A stretch of 64,000 nucleotides of DNA, taken from assembly GCA_023053545.1 (NCBI GenBank), contig JAKZAN010000002.1:9172790-9236789 (forward strand), given 5' to 3'. A model generated the notes under the pieces. The model had not been told where the DNA came from and made no database searches. It saw only the letters and a program-made list of their open reading frames with translations. The stretch is from Lepidurus packardi (lineage: Eukaryota; Arthropoda; Branchiopoda; Notostraca; Triopsidae). This document shows positions 1-58,953 of the stretch, piece after piece (the stretch's first letter is position 1; every line of letters begins with the position of its first letter). The translations under genes and the position numbers were made by a program.

Positions 1-2484
1 TGATAGTCGTGTTCGCTTGTACGATTTAAGGGACCTGAGTTTATCGTGCAAGTATAAAGGGTGCGTCAACTTTAGCAGTCAAATCAAAGCCGGTTTTAGG
101 TAAGTAAAACCTCGTTTTTCTTCCCATTTCTGGCTTAAGAACTTAAAATTGCATAGCTTTTGGCAAAGCGGAACAAGATTTGTAGTAGTCATCGGAATGC
201 GTAACTTTCTGTTGCACATTCCATTCACAAGGCAGTGTGTAAAATATCGAAGGGTTTTCAACGCCCATTAATGTCAACCATTCCTCCAAATTGGGCATCG
301 TTTCCTTCGTAGGAAATTCGTATTTCTTAATTATGTGGAATTGTCGTTCCAAGTTCGTTAATTCATGGCACTTCTTCGATTCGCGCATTTTCTGCAAGTC
401 CAAGAGGATCAAACTGACGTCAAAGCCAGGCCAGCCATCTGGTTCCAGTTGTCCTAATCTGGGCTTCAGTGAATTCATAAGGCGATACATGGCAAATTGA
501 TCCATAAACTTGGCATTTTGTGTTAACGCTACCCCCATAACTTGTTCTTTCTCAAATTTGTCAAATTGTGCATACAGCTGCACAATGTCAGCCCGGAACT
601 TAAGCTTAGGGTTAAGAAAGATGACTCGATCCACTTCGGGGTAATGCCATGGTAAAATTAAAGGGAGCATTTGAGTGATCAAGGTTTCTTGAATCATGGG
701 CAATGTAATGGTGGGGAAATGCCTATCAACTTGGCTAAGCAAATCGTGGTAAGTTTGTCCCAATAACTCCACCTGGTACGTGTATGTGCATGACGCTTGT
801 TCTCCTGCTTTGCTAAAGATATCAGCGATGGCATCTTGACTCTCGGAATCGGTTAAGATATGGAACTGGATCGGCGCCGAACTATACAGTAGAATCCACG
901 CAATCGTGTCTTTAGCCCTGTAGAAATTCCAATTTCGTAACTGCAAGCTTCTTTCTTAAGTTATTATTTTAAAAAGTGATTAGGTTTAGAAGTACCCAGC
1001 TGCTGCTAAAGGTTGTTGTCCAACGTAAAGGAGTCCGAGTAAGATATGAACGACAGTATTTGGTTTTAGGACTGTTTGTTGGGTAGGACTGAGCTTTAAC
1101 AAGGCTTGCTGATAAACATGTTCCGCGCTTTTCTGGGAATCGTCTTCCTACATCCAAAATTAGCATTTTAAATATTGAAAATATTCAGTATATAGCGAAA
1201 GAGAGGTCTTAAATCAGGGTATTGTAATGATTTGCCCGCAAAATTAAAAAATACTAGGAAGTATCCATACTTTGATGTAATTGTTAGGTGGGAAGTATGG
1301 TATGGGATCATTATGCGAGCTGGCTTCCGTTAGGTTAGCGGCTTTGGACCGTAATAAAACCGTGTATAGGGCAATGACACATAGTGATATTAGCACTGGA
1401 CCATAACGTGCACGTAGCATTTTTCTACGGGGATTGAAACACCTTTTTTTAGCTTTTAAATAGATTTCGAAGGGTTTTGTGAGAATGAAGGGAAGTTTTT
1501 CTACCTGGATGTTAGTTGAGCTAGCGAGCAGTAAGTTCGATTCCCCATTAGGCTAATTGCTTGGAGCATTGAAGAGAAATTAAGTTTATTTTCACGGTTT
1601 TTGTGGCCCATAGTTTCGAGAGTTTCTTCTAGAGGATCTACAGAAAAATAGAAATCGAATTCCGCGTTTACGTTACACAGGAGCCGTCGTCGATGACGAA
1701 CTGGCACTGGTTCTTCTGTGCCCCTTATTTTTTTAACGTTTCTTTCACACCTTGCTAGTTGGTAGTCCTTCGGAAGACTGAACTGTTCTTCACTAGAAAA
1801 TCTAACTGACTGAAGTTGATAAGTTGGAAAAAATCCGTTGGGTGTTGACTGTGTGCCGCGTCATTTACACCGCCAAAGCCAGAAGTTTGGGTTCAAAGCC
1901 CTTTCTAACATTTCCTTATTTTGATGGTGCCATACAAACGCATACCGCAGTAATTAATCTAAGCATCACCATATTAACAAATTTCTTTTAATGTCGTTTC
2001 AGTCACGATGGCAAGTTCATCATCAGCGGATCAGAGAACCAGTGTATCTATATATGGAAAACTAATCACGACTACGCCAAGTTTTCTTCCGCTCGAAGGG
2101 ATCGGAACGATTTCTGGGAAGGTGTAAAAGGTAATTGTCGAATTCTTCGGATATTAGATCACGAGAAGTACCGTAATGTTTTGACTCTTTGTAGCCCATA
2201 ACGCGGTAGTAACATCCGCAGTCTTTGCTCCCGATCCTGCTATTATATTCAACCATATCGAAGAGGAAAAGAAACGCAAAGAAGAGGAAGAGCAAGCGAA
2301 AGTTGAAGAGAAAGGGGCTGGTCCCAGAACTACTTTAGGAGGGCATGGTCAGTCCCCACGAACGACGACTACGGCGTGTTCGGGATATGTTATAGTTAGC
2401 GCGGATTTTAATGGTGTGGTCAAAGTCTTCCTGAACCGAATGAAACCAAAACACAGTTCTTTGCCTGCTTCGGCATTAGCTTAG
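1..2484 (+). CDS. WDR44: WDR44 (Rab11-binding WD40 protein), 3' part
   Basis: Only the last three coding exons are in the window: 1-99, 2003-2130 and 2195-2484 (TAG). The first reads DSRVRLYDLRDLSLSCKYKG and the next HDGKFIISGSENQCIYIW, then RRDRNDFWEGVKAHNAVVTS. These are the last two WD40 blades of WDR44, whose human sequence is nearly the same here. WDR44 is known as a Rab11 effector acting in endosome recycling and in preventing premature cilium formation. A lysine/glutamate-rich insert (around EEEKKRKEEEEQ) separates the final beta strands, which end in the SADFNGVVKVF block. Phases match at both junctions (AG|T and G|CC). The 1.9 kb intron 100-2002 contains a complete gene on the opposite strand, while the other intron is only 64 bp. 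The 5' part lies outside the window. Confidence 0.93.
143..1420 (-). CDS. XXYLT1-like GT8 glycosyltransferase homologue without the DXD motif, nested in a WDR44 intron
   Basis: Three exons on the minus strand, 1271-1420, 996-1147 and 143-950, give 369 residues. The start MLRARYGPVLISLCVIALYT is a type II signal anchor, as expected of a Golgi/ER enzyme. The body matches xyloside xylosyltransferase 1, which adds the second xylose to Notch EGF O-glucose glycans: HILTDSES near residue 130, LKFRADIVQLYAQFD, GWPGFDVSLILLDLQKMR and a C-terminal LTLMGVENPSIFYTLPCEWN. The family's Asp-Leu-Asp before LKF is replaced by Asn-Pro-Lys (FLNPKLKF), and the later GDQD block is replaced by NLEEW. The frame is intact and phases are 0 and 2, so this looks like a maintained pseudoenzyme or a changed activity rather than a decayed gene. 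The 150 bp first exon was found by eye from its signal anchor and the GTATGG donor; it is the least certain exon. Confidence 0.75.
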
Positions 2485-2544
2485 TTCTCTTGTTTTGTTA
2501 AGTTTTGTAAAGCTAGTCCTTCTCTGTCGCTATCTTTTCCCCCC

Positions 2545-2550
2545 AATAAA
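2545..2550 (+). promoter_or_regulatory. Polyadenylation signal AATAAA of WDR44
   Basis: AATAAA lies about 60 bases after the WDR44 stop, preceded by a C-rich stretch and followed by a GT-rich sequence (GTGTGTAGT). This is the usual layout of an animal cleavage and polyadenylation site. Confidence 0.6.
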
Positions 2551-3185
2551 GTGTACCTATATTGTGTGTAGTATCGTGAACTAATCAAGTTGATTTTGAC
2601 TTATGAAATTAGCCTAAGCTTTTATAAGTGTAAATCTAACGATTTTTTTATTGTCATTTGCTGAGAATACAAATGACGCATATGTACAGGCATACGAGTC
2701 TTTTCTATTGTAATTGAAACTAGGATTCACTAGTATTGTATTCATCATTGCTGCGATGATTGCGATACAGGATTGCCATACCTGGAGTCGTTGTTTTTTT
2801 AGCTTATTTAAGGCAATCAATCTAACGATTAAATGAATACAGTAACAGCATGTGATCTTTGTTAACTATAGTTTACCCAATAATTTTAGAGTAAAATCTC
2901 CAACAATGCAATTCCCAGAATAATGCGAACTTTTTGAAAATGTGGATAGGTCAATAATTAGATGATGGCGCCACTAGCTAAACACAGACAACTAGCAAAC
3001 TGGCTTCCTACTCAGCAAGGCGTTCATCTTTTCGTGTAGTGTGCGCATTTTGGCGGTCTGTTGTGTATGTAGCGTGTTTTTGGTTAAAAATAAGCTTGAT
3101 TTTGAAAGTTTAACTACAACAAGCCAAGGTATTGTATAACGTTCGTTAACTGTCCAGTCAATAATAACCTTTATTTTCTGGTAGA
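2551..3185. other. Intergenic region between WDR44 and EFTUD2
   Basis: No gene was recognised. The last 200 bases precede the EFTUD2 start and probably hold its promoter and 5' UTR. No TATA box stands out, as expected for a housekeeping gene. Confidence 0.5.
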
Positions 3186-7322
<4,137 letters not shown>

Positions 7323-19248: not shown

Positions 19249-20807
19249 TGGACCGATACATATGGATTTGTTCAACTTTCGGTAAGCGTTTTTATTGACC
19301 TTAACCACGTTACTCTTTCACTTATAACGTCATGAATATAATTTTTGTTTCTTACAGTCCACATAAACTATGGCGAAATTCCCTGTCGTATCAAGACATC
19401 GAGTAGCTTCAGCCCTGATGAGTACAAACGTAAACATACGACATAAAGAAAAAAGTCCCCTACACCCTTTTTGAACTGAAACGTAAGAATTTTGCAACTT
19501 TCGGTACGTTAACAAAATAAATGCTTTAACAACAAAATTCACTACTTTCAGTAATCCCTCGATCGACAGCACTTTCAAATACGTACCTTGTCTTATTACT
19601 GCAGGCTACACGGAATACGCCACTTACACACAATACAAATAAAAAAAGGAAAACTCCCAACCACACCAATTTATACATGCTGTGCCGAAGCCCAAAAATT
19701 TGTTCAACTCCCGGTATATTCAGATCATAAAGTTGTTTACATTCAAATGTCAGACTTGTAAATACGAAGCTACAAAACATGCCATAATCACATCATATAG
19801 CTAAGCAGTACAAAATTCCGCATCGCAAAAAGACAGACACAATAATATACTCCGCAAACACCCAGTGACAGTAAAATGTACATTCAGATCACACATTTTA
19901 AATACATTTTTCTGCTATTAATCATAAATAACAAATCGAATATTCCACGTTCTTAACACGGACAGTTACGCAGCTCAGCAATAATCAGGTGAAACTATAA
20001 TGTTGTTCTATAAGTATTTCCTTATAGTAGGTATGGAATAGGACAACATTTCCCATGAGCACCAATACCGGCATAGATACCACCGATTCTATTTCGTTTG
20101 TAAAAATAACAATCCAAAAAATTTCCAACCATTCTAAAATCATCAAGTCGTAAAACGAATTGCCCTACGAATAAATGGCTTCGATCATTATCGAAAGCTA
20201 TTTTAAGGAAAAGCATTCCCTATTAATAAGGGAACGTCCATAAATGCGGCGTCATACAAATTTCACGACGTTTGGACCCTCCCACCCAATTAAACGGTCA
20301 ACACTTTTTTTACCAATTTTAGTACATTTCAAAATATTGGTATGTTTTAAAACAAATATGATGTTTTCATTTTCAAAGATTTACCTCAGGTACATAATAT
20401 ATATTTCTTGCATTTTAGATAAATAGTTTGGGATTTCCGTATAATACAAAACCATCATGTATTTTTCTCTATTTTAACTCGATATACGCATAACCCAACT
20501 GCAATTTAACTGCCTTCCACAACGTGACACCTTTTAAAAACACACCAAAAGCGGCAAACAATAAGACAACTGCATCCAGCTACTAAGCAAGAAAACTTCA
20601 AAATGTGCTTTGACACTCGAACTAAGGATACAAATTTCAATTGACCATCCCTAACTGCTGGTACACCTTTGAAATTTTTTCTTTCTAAATTGTACCCTTT
20701 TCATTAACAAAAGGAAGAAAATGACCTGACTAATTGACTTGAACCTTTGCCTCCATGATTGGACTTTGACCGAACTTGACTTTACGAAGAACCTACTCTT
20801 CCAGGCA

Positions 20808-20865
20808 TCAACTCTACGATAGAACCCGACTATAAAAGACCTCACACGGAATGACAGAAAACAGT
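20808..20865 (+). promoter_or_regulatory. TATA promoter of the RPA-like gene
   Basis: Second, identical 58-base copy of the promoter block, with TATAAAA at 20831-20837. It lies about 240 bases before the RPA-like start codon. A likely 5' UTR intron follows, with donor AAAA|GTAAGTAAATAG near 20970 and acceptor CTTTCCACCAG| at 21062. The leader would then be spliced onto AAACGGCAACC directly before ATGG. Confidence 0.6.
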
Positions 20866-21073
20866 CCACTCACAGCTCCCAAACACTAAGTGCAAATCAA
20901 TATTCATCATACAGTTCCAAAAAAGAAATTGAAAGCAATTTCACCTCACCATTCCGAAACACCCTATTGCAAAAGTAAGTAAATAGTTTCATTTCACAAC
21001 TTTTTAATCCAATAGTTCTTCACTGCAACTCTTCTCATCATGTCTTATTCTCTTTCCACCAGAAACGGCAACC

Positions 21074-22129
21074 ATGGGAGCAGACGCTTACACCGGGTAC
21101 GTCCATGACATAACCCCTTTGCGCCAAAACCAGAGTCCATCGAAGTACACCAAAATTCCAGGCCAAAATTTTCGCTTTTTTCTGCAGACGTCGGACAATA
21201 CATACGAAGAATGTTTGTCGTTTATTGCTGGCTCCTATAGCAGAATTAAACGTTATTCGACCGCCAAGATACCCATCACCATCCAAATCCTACCGAATAG
21301 CTCACCTTCAGGTCAGACTCCACAAAAAAGAACTAAATACGATCTTATTAAGATTACCCAATCTTCGCAAATCAGCGAGACAAATCAAACGCTCAAATTT
21401 AATTATTCGCCAAGAAAACAGCAACAAGCCACACTTCAAACTTGTATAGAGTTTCCCGACACCCGTTACAAAATCATCGTTCAAATCCAAAACATTAGCG
21501 AAGAGAAGACAACGAACAAAGGGCAAACGTTCCGCGAAATAACAATTGGAGACGATACCTGTACTTCCACACTAATTACCTGGAAAAACCAAACAGTTAC
21601 TATCGAAAAAAACAAAGTTTACGAAATTACCGATGTCATCTATAATCAAGATTATCAAAACTTCGCCTTGACGCAGCAATCGTTCTTTACAAGAACAGAA
21701 GCCCAACTGGACATCCAGCAACCCATTTTAGACGACACAACGGAGCCCATCATACTGGAAGCCATAGCCCACTGCAACATTGGTATTTTCCAAACCTGCC
21801 TAGCCTGCAAAAAAAAAACAGAACGACAACCGACCATTCCAGATAACGATGACCCTACCATTACGTGCACAAACTGCAAAAAAATTCAACTTAGACAAAC
21901 GACTCCACTAACTTTCCAAGGCACAGTCGGTTTCTTCAACGATAATAACATTATCGAAGCATCGATGACAGAAACCATACTAAAAGACTTCTGCAAACAA
22001 GAAGAAACTCTACAACTGACTCCAGACACTGCGAATGCTGTCATCGTGAAATTACTAACGACAAAAGACTTCGACTTCACGGTAGACCTAGAAAAAAAAG
22101 AAATCGTCAACGTCACCAAGAAAAAATAA
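21074..22129 (+). CDS. RPA-like protein with OB folds and a four-cysteine zinc ribbon
   Basis: A single open frame of 351 codons starts in the good context GCAACCATGG. It reads MGADAYTGYVHDITPLRQNQ, then an OB-fold-like first domain (about 1-105), a second (about 115-205; RYKIIVQIQNISEEKTT, FREITIGDDTCTSTLITWKN) and a third carrying CLACKKK...CTNCKKIQ (about 230-345). This is the domain layout of the large subunit of replication protein A, the single-stranded DNA-binding factor of replication and repair. It lacks the N-terminal protein-interaction OB fold of cellular RPA70. RPA-like proteins are known as passengers of Helitrons and other elements, and the repeat-bounded, gene-poor setting fits that. 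I cannot assign it to a named element family. The frame is undamaged, suggesting recent activity or selection. Confidence 0.65.
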   Translation: MGADAYTGYVHDITPLRQNQSPSKYTKIPGQNFRFFLQTSDNTYEECLSFIAGSYSRIKRYSTAKIPITIQILPNSSPSGQTPQKRTKYDLIKITQSSQISETNQTLKFNYSPRKQQQATLQTCIEFPDTRYKIIVQIQNISEEKTTNKGQTFREITIGDDTCTSTLITWKNQTVTIEKNKVYEITDVIYNQDYQNFALTQQSFFTRTEAQLDIQQPILDDTTEPIILEAIAHCNIGIFQTCLACKKKTERQPTIPDNDDPTITCTNCKKIQLRQTTPLTFQGTVGFFNDNNIIEASMTETILKDFCKQEETLQLTPDTANAVIVKLLTTKDFDFTVDLEKKEIVNVTKKK

Positions 22130-22281: not shown

Positions 22282-22890
22282 TTAATAAAAATCACAGCTA
22301 AAAAGCAAACCATTAAAACATGCCAATAAAAAAAAAAAAAAAACATGCAATTTCAGTTCGTTATCGTTTCGCATTTGGTTCGCATTTTAATTCGCATTTC
22401 TGATAAATTTTGATACAACTTAATATCTATTCCTATTGATAAATGCTTTGATACATATAACTTGATAACATTTCATATTTTTACTGACCATCTTTTCTCC
22501 TATCAGTCAAGTCCGTTTTCTGCTCTATATCAAATAGTTTTAGGACTTACAGAATACCATAATTAATGCCATAATAATGACATGACATCAAACAAAGCCG
22601 TTTCTTTAAAAATCAACAGTAAATAAAAATCATAGACTGGCACAGCTAAAAACCTCTACACATTTCAAAATCGACCACAACAGACCACCAACAGACGAAC
22701 CCAGAACAGCCACCTACCCACGTTCACCACTACTAACATTCCGTTGTCACAGCTTATTCGGCAGTCCAACCTGTCGTCTTGTAAATTATAAAGCTGTCTC
22801 TGTCGAGTTATTTTAAAATAATCCAAGTAAATTTGCTTCATTAAGGATTTGATTTACGCTCAATAATATTATTTCACATTTAGCTTTAAA
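22282..22890. other. Promoter region of the Ada2a/Rpb4 gene
   Basis: AT-rich sequence with no gene. Partial copies of the element's end word recur (ATCACAGCTAA at 22291, GTCACAGCTTA near 22746). The last 150 bases should contain the shared Ada2a/Rpb4 promoter and 5' UTR. A run of about 16 A is at 22328. Confidence 0.45.
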
Positions 22891-24429
22891 ATGGCCCAAT
22901 CGGGACAGGAAATGACTGACGAGGATGCTGGCGTCCTACAGTTTCCTAAAGGTATGTTTCTTCTTTTCCCTTCTAGTTGTGTAATTGTCTGTGTGTAGTA
23001 AGGATGGTTCATGTTCTGTTGTTCTCACGACGAGTCCCAAGTTGATTGGGCGTTAGAAAGCTGACCTGTAGCATCTAGGTTTTCGTTTTGATGCGGATGT
23101 GCAATTGGCATATTATTAGCTTGTTGTGTCAGGCAGTATCATGGATTTGTATCCCTCTCAGTTTGCTGCGGTTGTCAAGGAATTCTGAAGCTGCCCTATG
23201 TATACTGTGCTCAATGCAGCGGTCATGTTCGACTGTGTCTACCTTGTTTCGCCAATGGTTATGAACAAAATGAACATGAGAGCTCTCACAGCTATCACGT
23301 TATTCGGGACAGCTTTCCACCGTTTAGTGAATCTACCTGGACAGCCCGCCAAGAGTTGGAGCTCCTGACCGCTATCGAACGACTTGGCCCTCACAACTGG
23401 TTAGAAGTCTCGCGCTATATCAGCTCTTGTAAAACTCCCCGTCAAAGTCAAGAACATTTTACCCAATTCTATCTAGACCAACCGGATCAGTCGCTTCCTC
23501 GCTTCCCAGAAGGAAATGACAGGCATGTATTGCATCCAACGCCGCTATTTTACTCAACTAATGTTGGTGATCCTCCCCGGCCAGCTTCTAACACCCACTG
23601 CACCGACATGGCTGGTTATAATGCAGCTCGTGGCAATTTTGAAACAGAAATATTTGAACATGCTGAGCAAGATTTGACTTGGTTGGAAACGTTGCCAGTA
23701 CCTCCTGATCCGGACGAAGCATCTGACGACGAAAAATTAGAGCAGGCGTTGCAAGCAGCAGTCGTGGGCGCTTACAACACAAAATTGAGGCACCGAGCTC
23801 GGCAAAAACGGATCATTAGAGAACACGGGCTCATTAGCTTGCATCGAGCCATGTCGTTACGTCTTCGTTATGACTTGGCTTTACCCGGTTTCAGCTACGA
23901 GCGCTTCCTCAAGTTTGCCCAAATCCTTCGCGCGATGGAGCTGGACAAATTGCTCGAAGGCTTGCACGCGTGTCTGGATATCAGGCAGCGGATTTTGCGA
24001 TTGCAGAACATGCGGAAATTGGGAATTCAGAGCTTTGCTGCGGCGGAACTCTACCAAAGATTGCTTTCCAAGCGCGAGTTTCTGCACAAAGAGCAGAAGT
24101 TGACGCGAGTGGCCATTACGGATTTTTTGGCACCTTTGCAAAACGTGCCAACATCTTCGCAAAATCGACGAGTGTTTCAACCTCTGGAAGTGGTGGGACT
24201 ACCGGGTTATGACAAACTGAGCGAGAAAGAACGGTCTTTCTGTGCTAACGTACGCCTCGTGCCAGAACAGTTCGTCGAGTATAAAAGTTTGTTCATTAAA
24301 GAATGCCAAGAGAGGCGAGGATTGAAACTTGCTGACGCTCGCAAGCTAATAAAAATAGATGTTAATAAAATTAGGAAACTGCATGACTTACTTATAGCTG
24401 AAGGCCTTATTTATCTGCCGACAGTTTGA
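22891..24429 (+). CDS. TADA2A: TADA2A / Ada2a, transcriptional adaptor of GCN5/PCAF complexes
   Basis: Exons 22891-22951 (shared with Rpb4) and 23162-24429 give 442 residues. Ada2a is an adaptor of a GCN5/PCAF acetyltransferase complex (ATAC in insects) and works in the nucleus. In order: the N-terminal piece [14 protein letters not shown]...FPK, a ZZ zinc finger (VCCGCQG, CAQC, CLPC, then His pairs) at about 21-75, a SANT/Myb-like domain ([20 protein letters not shown]) at about 80-130, and the Ada2 middle region with DPPRP...[13 protein letters not shown]. At the C-terminus is a SWIRM domain ([20 protein letters not shown] to [20 protein letters not shown]). The middle region and SWIRM match TADA2A rather than TADA2B. 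The first exon ends with one base (G), joined as G|TT to give Val. The N-terminal 20 residues are those of Rpb4, showing that the exon is shared. Confidence 0.95.
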
Positions 24430-25060
24430 GCAATACAGGGATTTGTAAATTGTGACGTCTTGATTAGAACTTTGTTCCTGACAACGCCTCGAGCATCCTG
24501 GTTATTAACTTTTGCTTATTTGTGTCCCTTTTTGTTTCTGTTAGAATTTGAGAACGCCGAGACTTTGTTAATTTCGGAAGTACACATGTTACTAGAACAC
24601 CGGAAATCCCAAAACGAAAGTGCAGAAGAAGAGCAAGAATTGTCAGAGGTTTTTATGAAAACTTTGAATTATACGCAACGCTTTTCCAAATTCAAAAATC
24701 GAGAAACGATCGCAGCGGTGAGAAGCCTTTTACTCCAGAAGAAACTACATAAATTTGAGCTTGCCGCCTTAGCTAATCTTTGCCCTGAAAGCCCCGAAGA
24801 AGCCAAAGCCCTCATTCCAAGGTATTATATATAGTAGTGTTTGATTCTAAAAGACTCACACAATTAAAACGATCTTAGCAATGATTAAAAACTATTAAAA
24901 GGATGTGACTTGGAAGTTTTTAATCTCTTAATTAAAAGCCAAAGGGATATAAGAAACTAAATCTTGTCGTGTTAATTTTAGTTTAGAAGGACGGTTCGAA
25001 GACGACGAACTCCGCCAGATCTTGGAAGATATTCAAACTAAGCGGAGTTTCCAATATTAA
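22891..25060 (+). CDS. POLR2D: POLR2D / Rpb4, RNA polymerase II subunit, alternative product of the Ada2a locus
   Basis: Exons 22891-22951, 24545-24821 and 24982-25060 give 138 residues. Rpb4 pairs with Rpb7 to form the stalk of RNA polymerase II. Exon 1 supplies [20 protein letters not shown]; exon 2 continues [20 protein letters not shown], and the last exon ends [25 protein letters not shown]. This matches human POLR2D almost throughout, including the FPK-EF junction. The 115 bases between the Ada2a stop and the Rpb4-specific acceptor contain no ATG, so the protein must take its start from the exon also used by Ada2a. The two acceptors accept the same one-base overhang (G|TT for Ada2a, G|AA for Rpb4). 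The Ada2a reading frame is therefore skipped as an intron of Rpb4. The arrangement is known in Drosophila and other insects. Confidence 0.95.
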
Positions 25061-25853
25061 TTTCCCCATTTCCACCCAAGGTCTCTTTTCTTGTTTTATT
25101 CGTTGCCAGGAAAAGACAAGTATGTCCCAATGCGAGCCGTTGTTTTGCATAATCCGCTTCTTTTCTCTCGTTTTTCAATTTTCCAAGTCGTTACGCCCGG
25201 GCTGAAACCATAGCAACGAGATGAATAATCCAATTCTAGGGTTTTTCTTTTCTTCCTTTGTTTAACCCACGCGGAATATTCTGCAGGTATCTGATTTTTT
25301 TATATTTGGAAATAGCCTTTCGCAATGTCGCAGCAGCATTTTCCTTTTCATTATTTCCTGTCGTACCGTAAATTAATGTAAGGAAATTGAATTAAATACA
25401 TAATAAGAGGGAAAGATTGCAAGGGATCTAATGTGAGTAAAACACATCACATAGCAAATTAAGTTCGATAAAGGAATTAGGGAGCTAACACTTGGAACAG
25501 GGAGACAAAAATTCGCACACCACTTTGCTTCTCAACCATCAAAACTCCCGCTACTTCCAAGCGAACATCCAACCTATCGTCGCTGCCTACGACTCTCTAG
25601 TCATCTATCGTCAGTGTCATCTGAAAACTCTCATCTCATTACAGTACGTTAATGAACAATCCCAGCCTTAGGGGCGGGACTTGTTTGTCGTACGTGACTG
25701 CCAGACGCGAGTTTGTTTACGCACGTTCATTTGTCCTAAGTTGGACAATAAAAGTGATTATGACCGCTTTTCAGTTGAATGACGGTTATTTTTGCCTAGA
25801 TCTGTAGGTCCGGCTCAGTACATCCTTGACGACGTCAAGTAGGAGATTTAAAT
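25061..25853. other. Intergenic region between Rpb4 and GPR155
   Basis: No gene recognised. It presumably holds the Rpb4 3' UTR and the GPR155 promoter. A pyrimidine-rich first half is followed by AT-rich sequence. Confidence 0.5.
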
Positions 25854-28800
25854 ATGGCAATTCTGAGACTGAGTCTGAATAAAGGTTTCGCTTATGTAAC
25901 TAAAGTTGTTTTCTTCGTCCTCGTCTTAGGGAACTATATAACAACGATGCTTTTGCCAAGGGAAATGGAAAGCTTGACTATCACGAACACTGCCTTACCA
26001 ATAGTTATGTCGAACACAAGCTCGGAATATGAGCAATTATCAGATACTGCATTTGACAACTTGTATCCAGCTGTTGTCAAATGTTTTGCAGTAATATTTT
26101 GCGGGTATTTTTATTATTATTTAATGAAAGGAAGAAAGGCTCATAAACCTGTCTTTCTTTGTAAGGTTTATTGCTGGCAAGCTGGGGTGGATATCCCAGA
26201 TGGAATCCAAAGGGTTGAACACATTTGTGGGAACTTTTTGCCTCCCTGCCCTAATTTTCAACTCGATGGCTACATTAGATTTCGGGTAACCTACTTATTG
26301 TTTTGCGAAAGATCAACTTATTTTGTTCTGCGTAGGATTGTAAATTGGCGCTTTTTGTTGGCTATATTTCTTTCAAAGACTACGATCTTTCTTCTGGTTC
26401 TTATCGTAACCTTAATTGCGAGCAAACCCACTAATTTAGCCAAAGCTGGACTCTACGCAATATTTTGTTCTCAGAGCAATGATTTCGCTCTGGGTTATCC
26501 TATAAGTAAATTTATAAATGTTATATTATCAATATTTTACGCAAATTATGATTCCATTGCAGTTGCGGCGCTTTATAGTCAAACTCACCCCGAATATCCG
26601 TCTTATTTGTATCTCGTGGCACCAGTTTCGCTGGTTTTCTTAAATCCCATTGCATTTTGCTTTATGGAATGTGGGCGTCAACAAGATCTCAGTCGAGCCG
26701 CCCTTACAGATCGAAACATGAAGTTTGTCGCTCCTTCTGGTTGCCGTTTAGTTTTGACCATCGCTAAAAGCGTCCTATTGAACCCAGTAGTGCTCATGAC
26801 ATCGTTGGGTTGCTTGAGCAACGTAACCTTTGGCCCATATCTTCCTACAGTGTTGCAAGGCGTCCTAAACGCACTAGGTCTGGCTTTTTCAGCCACTGCC
26901 TTGTTCTTGCTGGGTTTAAGAATGGTCGGGCAAGGGCAGCAATTCAATCGAGCTGATTTGGTCACTCCGGGGCTTCTTATCGTTGTGAAATGGTAATCTT
27001 ACTTATTCGTTAGGTTCATACCAATTTCAAGCTTTCTTTACCTCGTTTACAGTTTGGTGTTCCCTATAATTACCAGAGAAATGGTTAGTTTGGTTCATAC
27101 AGGAATCACTACCAACGCTACATTAGATTTGAGTGATTACGGCTTTCTGTACGGCACTTTTCCGTCCGCCCCCAGTGTCTTCGTATATGCATCGCAGTTT
27201 CACGTTGCGACAGAATTGGTACTTGGGTTTTGTACTTTCGCTGCAGGAAAATTAAACTTTCGAAGTAATACGTATATTTTAATCCCAGATCGCTGGAGCA
27301 ATGGTAGCTTGTACATTTTTATCCGCACCGGTTATGTTCGTATCTGCCAAGATGGTAACTCTATCTCGAATCAATCCCAGCAATTACCTGTTTGAGCTGG
27401 ATGCTTTCCTTTTTGATGTCAGTGTAGTAGGACTTGTTTGTGCTGTAAGTTTCTTTCTTTTCCTTGTAAAAATATTTTTTTTAAGTCCTTATTTCTTTTA
27501 GTCCTGGGTTCTGCTCATTTTCATGGTTGGCAAAAAATGGAAACAATTGCCACATTTTTTTACCATGTCATTATTACTGGCTCAGGTAATTATCAGATTA
27601 ACTCTTGTTATGAACTAATATTGCTGGATTTTTTGAATTTTCGCTCATCTTATTTAAACCCCTTTTTTCAGAGTTTGGGGTGTTTAGGTGCATTATTTTG
27701 GTCCGTATTGGGCTGCAATACGACATGGCAACTGTACTTGCAATTCGGCTGTATTGTCCTGGGCGTTTTTGGAGCTCGTATATGGACGGCTCTTTTGGCT
27801 GTCTCTTTGTACCTCCTACGCACTCGTTCCTTATGTTTCGTTCTTAAACTTCGTCTCCTCTTTTCAGCCATCGGATGGGGGTAAAATTTCATAATCTTAT
27901 AACCTTATTTCTACAAAAAATAATCTTTTTTTTTTTTTAAATTAAACATTTTTATTATTCTAACATTTTATTATTTGAAAATTGTATTATTTTTTAGTAT
28001 CCCTGCCCTTATTGTCGTGGTGTTGCTGTCCGCTGTTAGCGAAGAAGCCGAAGTTCATCATAAAACCGATCCTAATTTTCAGTACGGGCATTCTCAAGCC
28101 TTGTTCGCTTTGGTGATCCTAATCCTTTCCTTTCTTGGTATAAGACGTTTTGAGTATGGCAAAGTAACGCTGGTATAATTTATGTAACTCTTGCAGTTAC
28201 AATTGTTTCCTTGGTGCTGCATCAACGCAATGGAAAGAGACACGAGGAATCGCGAGAGCACCCTGGGGATGATACTGAAAGTCTCCTGCCTGATATGGAA
28301 GATCTCGATCAAATCCGGCCCATGGTTTCGTGTGAGCCAACAGCAAGAGTCACGCCTGCTGTCCCCTTGTTTCCATCTTCATCTACTACCAATTTAACAA
28401 CCCTAACCTTCAACAGAGAGCGTTTGGACCCTATTGTCGAAATCCGCGAGAGTGACGATGGACAAACTATGATTTTTGGGGCGGGTATTAGTAATATGTG
28501 CCCGCCCAAGGAATGCGGTCCTTTGAAAAGAGAACAATGTTCAGCCTCTCTTCGGCGGTACCGCAACGCGCGTGTAATCGTAGATAGAGAAGAAGATGTT
28601 GGGAATCAAAATGGCGATGGAGAGCAACAAATATTGCGGCATGTAGTACTTTTATTGGTTCTTACAGGTTCCATGTTTGTGGTAAGCCACACGCTAGCAA
28701 TGCACGCTAATTTTGAGTTAATTTCGTACAAACTTTCAGGGTCTGGCTTTGTGTATATGGAGGTTGTGTTTGGAGGAAGTTTCAGGGGTTTATTTGGAGC

Positions 28801-57500: not shown

Positions 57501-58953
57501 TTTGCTGAGGGTTGCTCTTCGTTACATTTCACGTCGGGTCCTGGACAAAGAAAGAAAAAAGGTCCGAGAAAAGCCAGTGGAATTAATTGGAATTGCATGA
57601 CTCTTTTGCGTCAGCTTAAGCAGAGCAAAATAAAGTACTTCAAAAAAGAAAGAGGGAAAGGAAAGCTTTAGGAGAAAATGGAAAAAGTTAGTAACTCAAG
57701 ACCATTGTTAAAGTTTATTAGAAAAAACTCCATAGCTTCAAGCTCCATTTCGTTTTTAATTTCGTCTCACTTTCTTCCCAGGGAAAGTTTGCAGGCCTGT
57801 AGTTCCATCGAACCCAACGTTTTAGTGTGCCCGATGTTAAAATTGTCTTACCGAACAACTAGGATGTAACAGTTACCCCAATTCTTTGCACATACTCGGC
57901 TCAGCGATCCGGTAGGTATTTTCCCTTGCACAATTAGTAAAAGTCTTGAAGAGAAATCGGACCCTATGAGTGTGCATTCCATAATTTTGTCGGGGAACAT
58001 GCGCAGGAAGGGTTAAAACGACATCGAAAGCCCAGGTTGGCCAAACTAGGTCGATGATGAGTGGATAAGGTATAATGCCTGAAATTTTTTCGCACCTCCT
58101 TTAGTGTCGGATTCGACCGTTTTCCAATTGTTTTAGCAACTGTGTTTTGCATTCTTAAAAAAAAAATAAAAGGAAAAAAGTGTTACATTTCCGTAGGAAG
58201 TCTGACACAATTTTGCAAGAAAATTCAAAGATGCGACTTGAAATTAGCTACAAAACCTTGACATCCACGTTATTATGGGCACCTGTTTGGGCAAAATATG
58301 AACAGCAGCCATCTTAAGAATGGATCAATCTATTTCGTACATTATGTTCCGGAATCTTCGAAAATGCGATTTAACATCAATCATCACAAAACTGTGAGGC
58401 ATTGCATGTGCTACCGTTATCTCTGCGGATATCTGACTTGATACGATTACTAGAACAACAGGATTTAATGAGCAAGGGAACAAAATAAACCCCTCTACAC
58501 TACTCTTTCGAAAGCTGTTCGTTTGCGATAAAAGCTATTTAGACAGTCCTTTAAATAGACTCCTTAAGGTAGCAAAAGATGGACAGAAACAGACAAGCTT
58601 AATTTTTTTTAATAGTGTCTACTTCCTACTCCTACCGGTAATGATAAGCCACGTGAATTATAGCAGAAGAAGCATGGGTGAGTTATAGGAAGCTTGCTTC
58701 CACCTGAGTCGGGGTCATTGGACTTGGATGGAACCAACGGCAAAGTTCGAAGAAGAAAACCACACTTGCTTACGGCACAAGAGTTCCAGGTCTGCAGAGT
58801 TGGAATTCTACTGGTTCAGTAGACGAAAGACTCGGACCGGGGTTAGGAATTGGAAAATAACTTGTATCTCTGTAGCACGTAACTCGGGGAGGAAACTTAG
58901 AAAGGCAGTATTTTATTTTAACTAGTTCTTCGTATTTTTAAGTGCAAATCAAG

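Follow-up and report, generated by a model that had tools for sequence, protein, structure and literature searches.

Muratoglu et al. in 2003 and Pankotai et al. in 2010 are said to have described, in Drosophila, a common first exon from which Ada2a and Rpb4 are both produced by alternative splicing. The original prediction for the locus studied here invoked this precedent. The part concerning joint expression of the two genes was borne out: in the fly, according to PMC7413394, a "bi-cistronic operon" provides for the expression of Rpb4 together with Ada2a.

A described parallel involves other genes. According to PMC4528330, Su(var)3-9 of insects may have relocated to an intron of eIF-2gamma, each of these two genes is the sole orthologue in the fly, and the FlyBase class "Genes with CDS overlap" comprises 10 pairs and one triplet. 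Ada2a is not named in the text of that paper, which describes the class of genes with a shared first coding exon. In the open-licence literature searched, we found no report of the Ada2a/Rpb4 arrangement in a crustacean.

The locus analyzed here lies in the genome of the notostracan Lepidurus packardi (assembly GCA_023053545.1, contig JAKZAN010000002.1), within a stretch of 64,000 nucleotides that was analyzed as a whole (hereafter, the window; coordinates refer to it unless a contig is named). One ATG-bearing exon is in frame with the acceptors of both genes, as expected of an Ada2a/Rpb4 shared-exon locus. Arrangements of this kind are known; the novelty lies in a well-supported example from the Lepidurus genome and in the intron contrast between its Ada2a and a paralogue. 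We put the probability at about 92% that a single transcription unit gives rise to two unrelated proteins through the choice of 3' splice site, a reading in which we infer both splices and the single promoter from sequence.

The locus would resemble that of Drosophila in the joint expression of both genes, stated for the fly, and in the common first exon and alternative splicing reported for it. It differs in that the Lepidurus Ada2a body is one exon and in that the Lepidurus genome carries TTAGG repeats, which are not known from flies. With Su(var)3-9 and eIF-2gamma, it shares the possible movement of a chromatin gene into an intron of a housekeeping gene, with the start codon, the N-terminal residues, and (in Lepidurus, presumably) the promoter in common; the genes are different, however, and PMC4528330 gives 80 shared residues there, against 20 in Ada2a/Rpb4. 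Members of the FlyBase class, as described in PMC4528330, have the first exon and the start in common and read a short coding stretch at the N-terminus in one frame, all of which applies to the predicted Lepidurus messages; the Lepidurus locus is not from Drosophila and is predicted from its sequence.

Organization of the locus

The features of the locus, all on the forward strand, are as follows.

22787..22792 (+): TATAAA, a candidate core promoter motif some 100 nt 5' of the start codon; motif match only
22891..22951 (+): shared first coding exon (exon 1), ATG-started, 61 nt, 20 codons plus 1 base
22952..22957 (+): shared 5' splice site GTATGT, preceded by the exon end AAG
22952..23161 (+): intron 1 as spliced for Ada2a, 210 nt
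22952..24544 (+): intron 1 as spliced for Rpb4, 1593 nt, enclosing the complete Ada2a body
23162..24429 (+): Ada2a body, one open exon, with ADA2 ZZ finger, Myb/SANT, TADA2A-like domain, and SWIRM
24432..24437 (+): AATACA, just 3' of the Ada2a stop; no other of the scanned poly(A) signals occurs before the Rpb4 acceptor; motif match only
24545..24821 (+): Rpb4 exon 2, joining exon 1 in phase 1
24822..24981 (+): Rpb4 intron 2, 160 nt
24982..25060 (+): Rpb4 exon 3 to the stop, which ends at 25060
25391..25396 (+): ATTAAA, the earliest of the scanned poly(A) signals past the Rpb4 stop; motif match only

The original prediction had placed exon 1 at 22891–22951 and the two acceptors at 23162 and 24545, and these coordinates are correct. 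It had also proposed that the 61-base exon fits both the Ada2a body and Rpb4 and that both acceptors have the same phase; both spliced products are indeed open in frame, and the acceptors share one phase because the first introns, at 210 and 1593 nt, are each divisible by three. Exon 1 encodes 20 residues followed by G, the first base of the next codon. When intron 1 is retained, the frame of exon 1 meets stops. A scan of the stretch 5' of exon 1 (22583–22890) found no further ATG.

The donor of exon 1 matches the consensus MAG/GTRAGT at eight of nine positions, a match equalled by 0.44% of the 7,251 GTs in the window (both strands), and is strong. The shared exon suggests that Ada2a and Rpb4 would also have a promoter in common.

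Identity of the predicted products

Joining exon 1 to 24545, and 24821 in turn to 24982, gives an open Rpb4 reading frame of 138 aa. The Pfam domain RNA_pol_Rpb4 (PF03874) is found at 97.7 bits, over the cut-off, and residues 9–138 match a solved Rpb4 without gaps at 227.7 bits; among the chains listed, five solved Rpb4 chains align gap-free with the 138-aa product, beginning at residue 9 or 10. Given this domain and the gap-free full-length match, the predicted product is an Rpb4 (POLR2D) orthologue. Eleven residues encoded by exon 1 align to EEDASQLIFPK and DEDAADLQFPK of solved Rpb4 chains. A stretch of 20 residues of Lepidurus Rpb4 has as its counterpart a 20-residue stretch of solved chain 9mu7_D, which looks like a Drosophila protein.

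Joining exon 1 to 23162 gives a 442-aa predicted ADA2a whose stop ends at 24429. The ZZ_ADA2, TADA2A-like_3rd, and SWIRM domains are over their Pfam cut-offs, and the Myb/SANT domain, at 20 bits, is below its cut-off of 24.4 bits, correctly placed and in a region that aligns to a solved ADA2. With ZZ, SANT, middle, and SWIRM domains all represented, the predicted product is an ADA2. It matches six solved chains. The top match, at 105.7 bits, is a chain of 519 residues that bears just the name Transcriptional adapter 2; two SWIRM chains come next, "transcriptional adaptor 2-like" at 91.6 bits and "Ada2 alpha" at 90.5 bits. Pfam domains and solved-chain matches agree with the gene identities originally proposed, Ada2a and Rpb4, although the assignment to the a-type rather than the b-type is tentative.

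Exon 1 as the N-terminus of Rpb4

Against the Rpb4 N-terminus EEDASQLIFPK, the final 11 residues encoded by exon 1 reach a score of 34 (BLOSUM62). This score was compared with those of all donor candidates, defined as + strand GTs at window positions 1–24544 that follow a G and have the upstream 11 codons open in phase 1 (n = 161, including exon 1), among which the runner-up scores 12. When every stop-free 11-mer of the window is considered, on both strands (74,578, the sum of 37,935 and 36,643), the runner-up scores 23. A chance likeness of exon 1 to Rpb4 was rejected on both comparisons. Furthermore, the best phmmer score of Rpb4 rises from 210 bits without exon 1 to 227.7 bits with it. The proposal that exon 1 carries the sequence of the Rpb4 N-terminus was therefore upheld, by the gap between 34 and the scores of at most 12 of the other 160 donor candidates and by the gain in phmmer score.

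Searches were extended to the 108.6-Mb assembly of 344 contigs, which may be incomplete and in which the window lies on contig 2; in each search, the best candidates were scored. Among these, the exon-1 region as DNA and Rpb4 exon 2 each gave a single match, and the Rpb4 N-terminal peptide matched exon 1 and Rpb4 exon 2 only. A second genomic copy of Rpb4 or of exon 1 was rejected, as the best-scoring candidates in the assembly searches match this locus only. The Ada2a body matched itself and, weakly, one other gene (E 0.009).

Splice sites and the choice between products

Acceptors were scored in a simple and crude way, from the number of pyrimidines and the base that precedes the AG. By this count, the Ada2a acceptor at 23162 scores 13 and the Rpb4 acceptor at 24545 scores 15, against 10–15 for six introns of the ADA2 paralogue described below; 5.2% of the 7,524 AG sites in the window reach the score of the Ada2a acceptor and 0.9% that of the Rpb4 acceptor. 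The pyrimidine tract is stronger at the far Rpb4 acceptor than at the near Ada2a acceptor. A branch-like TTAAC lies 40 nt upstream of the Rpb4 acceptor, and no YTNAY branch-like motif was found within 60 nt of the Ada2a acceptor. Two other sites were recorded in intron 1: the AG before 22977, 25 bases past the donor, scores 17 by the same crude count, which is above both acceptors, and position 23120 offers Ada2a another acceptor in phase, with a score of 9, whose use would add 14 residues.

These features suggest how the two forms could be produced. Pol II would initiate 5' of 22891, and in the resulting transcript one 5' splice site would confront two 3' splice sites. Splicing of exon 1 to the near acceptor at 23162 would yield ADA2a with a 20-residue Rpb4 leader, and splicing to 24545, with the whole Ada2a body skipped, would yield Rpb4; every spliced pre-mRNA would then give either ADA2a or Rpb4. 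A weaker near acceptor combined with a stronger far one, as the crude score has them, would let both forms arise. The balance between Ada2a and Rpb4 may be set by splicing, with acceptor strength probably contributing to it.

Alternative readings

Two other readings place the first exons or promoters differently. In one, the downstream exons of Rpb4 would be read from a separate promoter inside or past Ada2a, which we regard as very improbable. The 115 bases ahead of the Rpb4 exon (24430–24544) hold no ATG in any frame, and none lies in frame upstream of the Rpb4 acceptor within its open frame; both scans agree with the original prediction, which held that Rpb4 has no other start, and a separate start was rejected in the stretches checked. 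With a downstream start at the Met of EVHM, Rpb4 would lose its conserved N-terminus. The + strand of window positions 1–24544 offers no other donor with an Rpb4-like peptide (the next scores 12 against 34), and no separate Rpb4 first exon emerged among the best-scoring candidates of the assembly search with the Rpb4 N-terminus. In the other reading, which is improbable but less so, exon 1 would serve Rpb4 alone and Ada2a would have its own first exon and promoter in 22952–23161 or further upstream. ADA2a N-termini are poorly conserved, so a private Ada2a exon would be unrecognizable by similarity, and for the same reason exon 1 cannot be shown to be the sole first exon of Ada2a. However, the Ada2a open frame holds no in-frame ATG upstream of its acceptor, back to the upstream stop, and exon 1 joins 23162 in frame at an acceptor that scores like the six paralogue introns. 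The expression of fly Ada2a and Rpb4 together, as given in PMC7413394, also speaks against a private exon.

A further possibility is a variant of the favored reading of one transcription unit with two 3' splice sites and concerns the 3' end. Eight poly(A)-signal forms were scanned for, and in the gap that separates the Rpb4 acceptor from the Ada2a stop AATAAA is absent and AATACA at 24432 is the sole form; the Ada2a mRNA would therefore either end in the gap at 24430–24544 or read on through the Rpb4 exons. In the latter case, the two messages would have a common 3' end and the Rpb4 exons would form the 3'UTR of Ada2a. The final codons of Ada2a (LIKIDVNK; 24348–24369, +) contain two AATAAA motifs before the stop, one at 24348 and one at 24364; if either were used, the Ada2a message could be cleaved ahead of its stop codon. 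These motifs and AATACA could direct cleavage ahead of the Rpb4 exon. We rate read-through at slightly under even odds.

An ADA2 paralogue and the origin of the arrangement

The contig that carries the locus holds a second TADA2A-like match, over the family cut-off, at a distance of approximately 1.8 Mb. In this Ada2b-like paralogue, seven exons separated by six introns of 53–67 nt form one open frame that spans the ZZ, SANT, and middle regions; the count was limited to these first seven exons and is thus a lower bound. The paralogue has at least six introns, whereas Ada2a has none across the region coded by its single 1,268-base exon. This contrast suggests that an intron-poor, perhaps retroposed, copy of Ada2a was placed in intron 1 of Rpb4. 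The structure fits either an intron-less copy inserted there or a thorough loss of introns. That Ada2a was fused only once, by retroposition into the first intron of Rpb4 and ahead of the split between insects and branchiopods, and that two essential genes have been tied by one splice choice since then, is a tentative proposal, about as likely to be wrong as right and if anything a little more so.

Other features of the neighborhood and the genome

Upstream of the locus, an open frame of 373 aa (21008–22129, +) ends approximately 760 bases before exon 1; it has no Pfam match and resembles an OB-fold/RPA-type protein by eye only. On the + strand, the stretch 20001–22000 contains few Gs (271 G versus 489 C). 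On the 3' side of Rpb4, a putative gene for a multi-pass membrane protein occupies 25830–26996 and beyond on the same strand, and its first long open frame has no Pfam match.

TTAGG is the arthropod telomere-type repeat, and a 30-base pattern of it has 79 matches in the assembly (overlaps counted), 52 of them in one stretch on contig 86, against none for the reversed control. This telomere-type TTAGG array lies at 58115–58454 of contig 86, and short runs occur on several other contigs. Branchiopods, Daphnia among them, typically have tandem two-domain haemoglobins. The assembly holds 13 globin matches, including five same-strand pairs spaced 546–611 bases from start to start, as in two-domain haemoglobins; the pairs lie on contig 3 (8583227–8698346), where three of them form a tandem array in steps of 2.7–3.2 kb, and on contig 1 (8303282–8304135), where one globin domain match contains TAA. 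The 18S rRNA measures 1,754 nt, which is shorter than that of Daphnia, and is followed after approximately 2 kb by the 5.8S rRNA (stretch 1–3966); the first spacer seems long. The TTAGG repeats and the paired globins hint at a crustacean, possibly a branchiopod, and the length of the 18S would allow for a branchiopod outside the cladocerans.

Significance

For a crustacean host such as Lepidurus, and provided that the fusion arose only once, the Ada2a/Rpb4 arrangement would be older than insects and would predate the insect–branchiopod split. One transcription start would then have bound a Pol II subunit to an adaptor of a histone acetyltransferase throughout that time. The locus would provide pancrustaceans with a datable shared genomic character, and it would offer a natural test of why the supply of two unrelated proteins by splicing persists.
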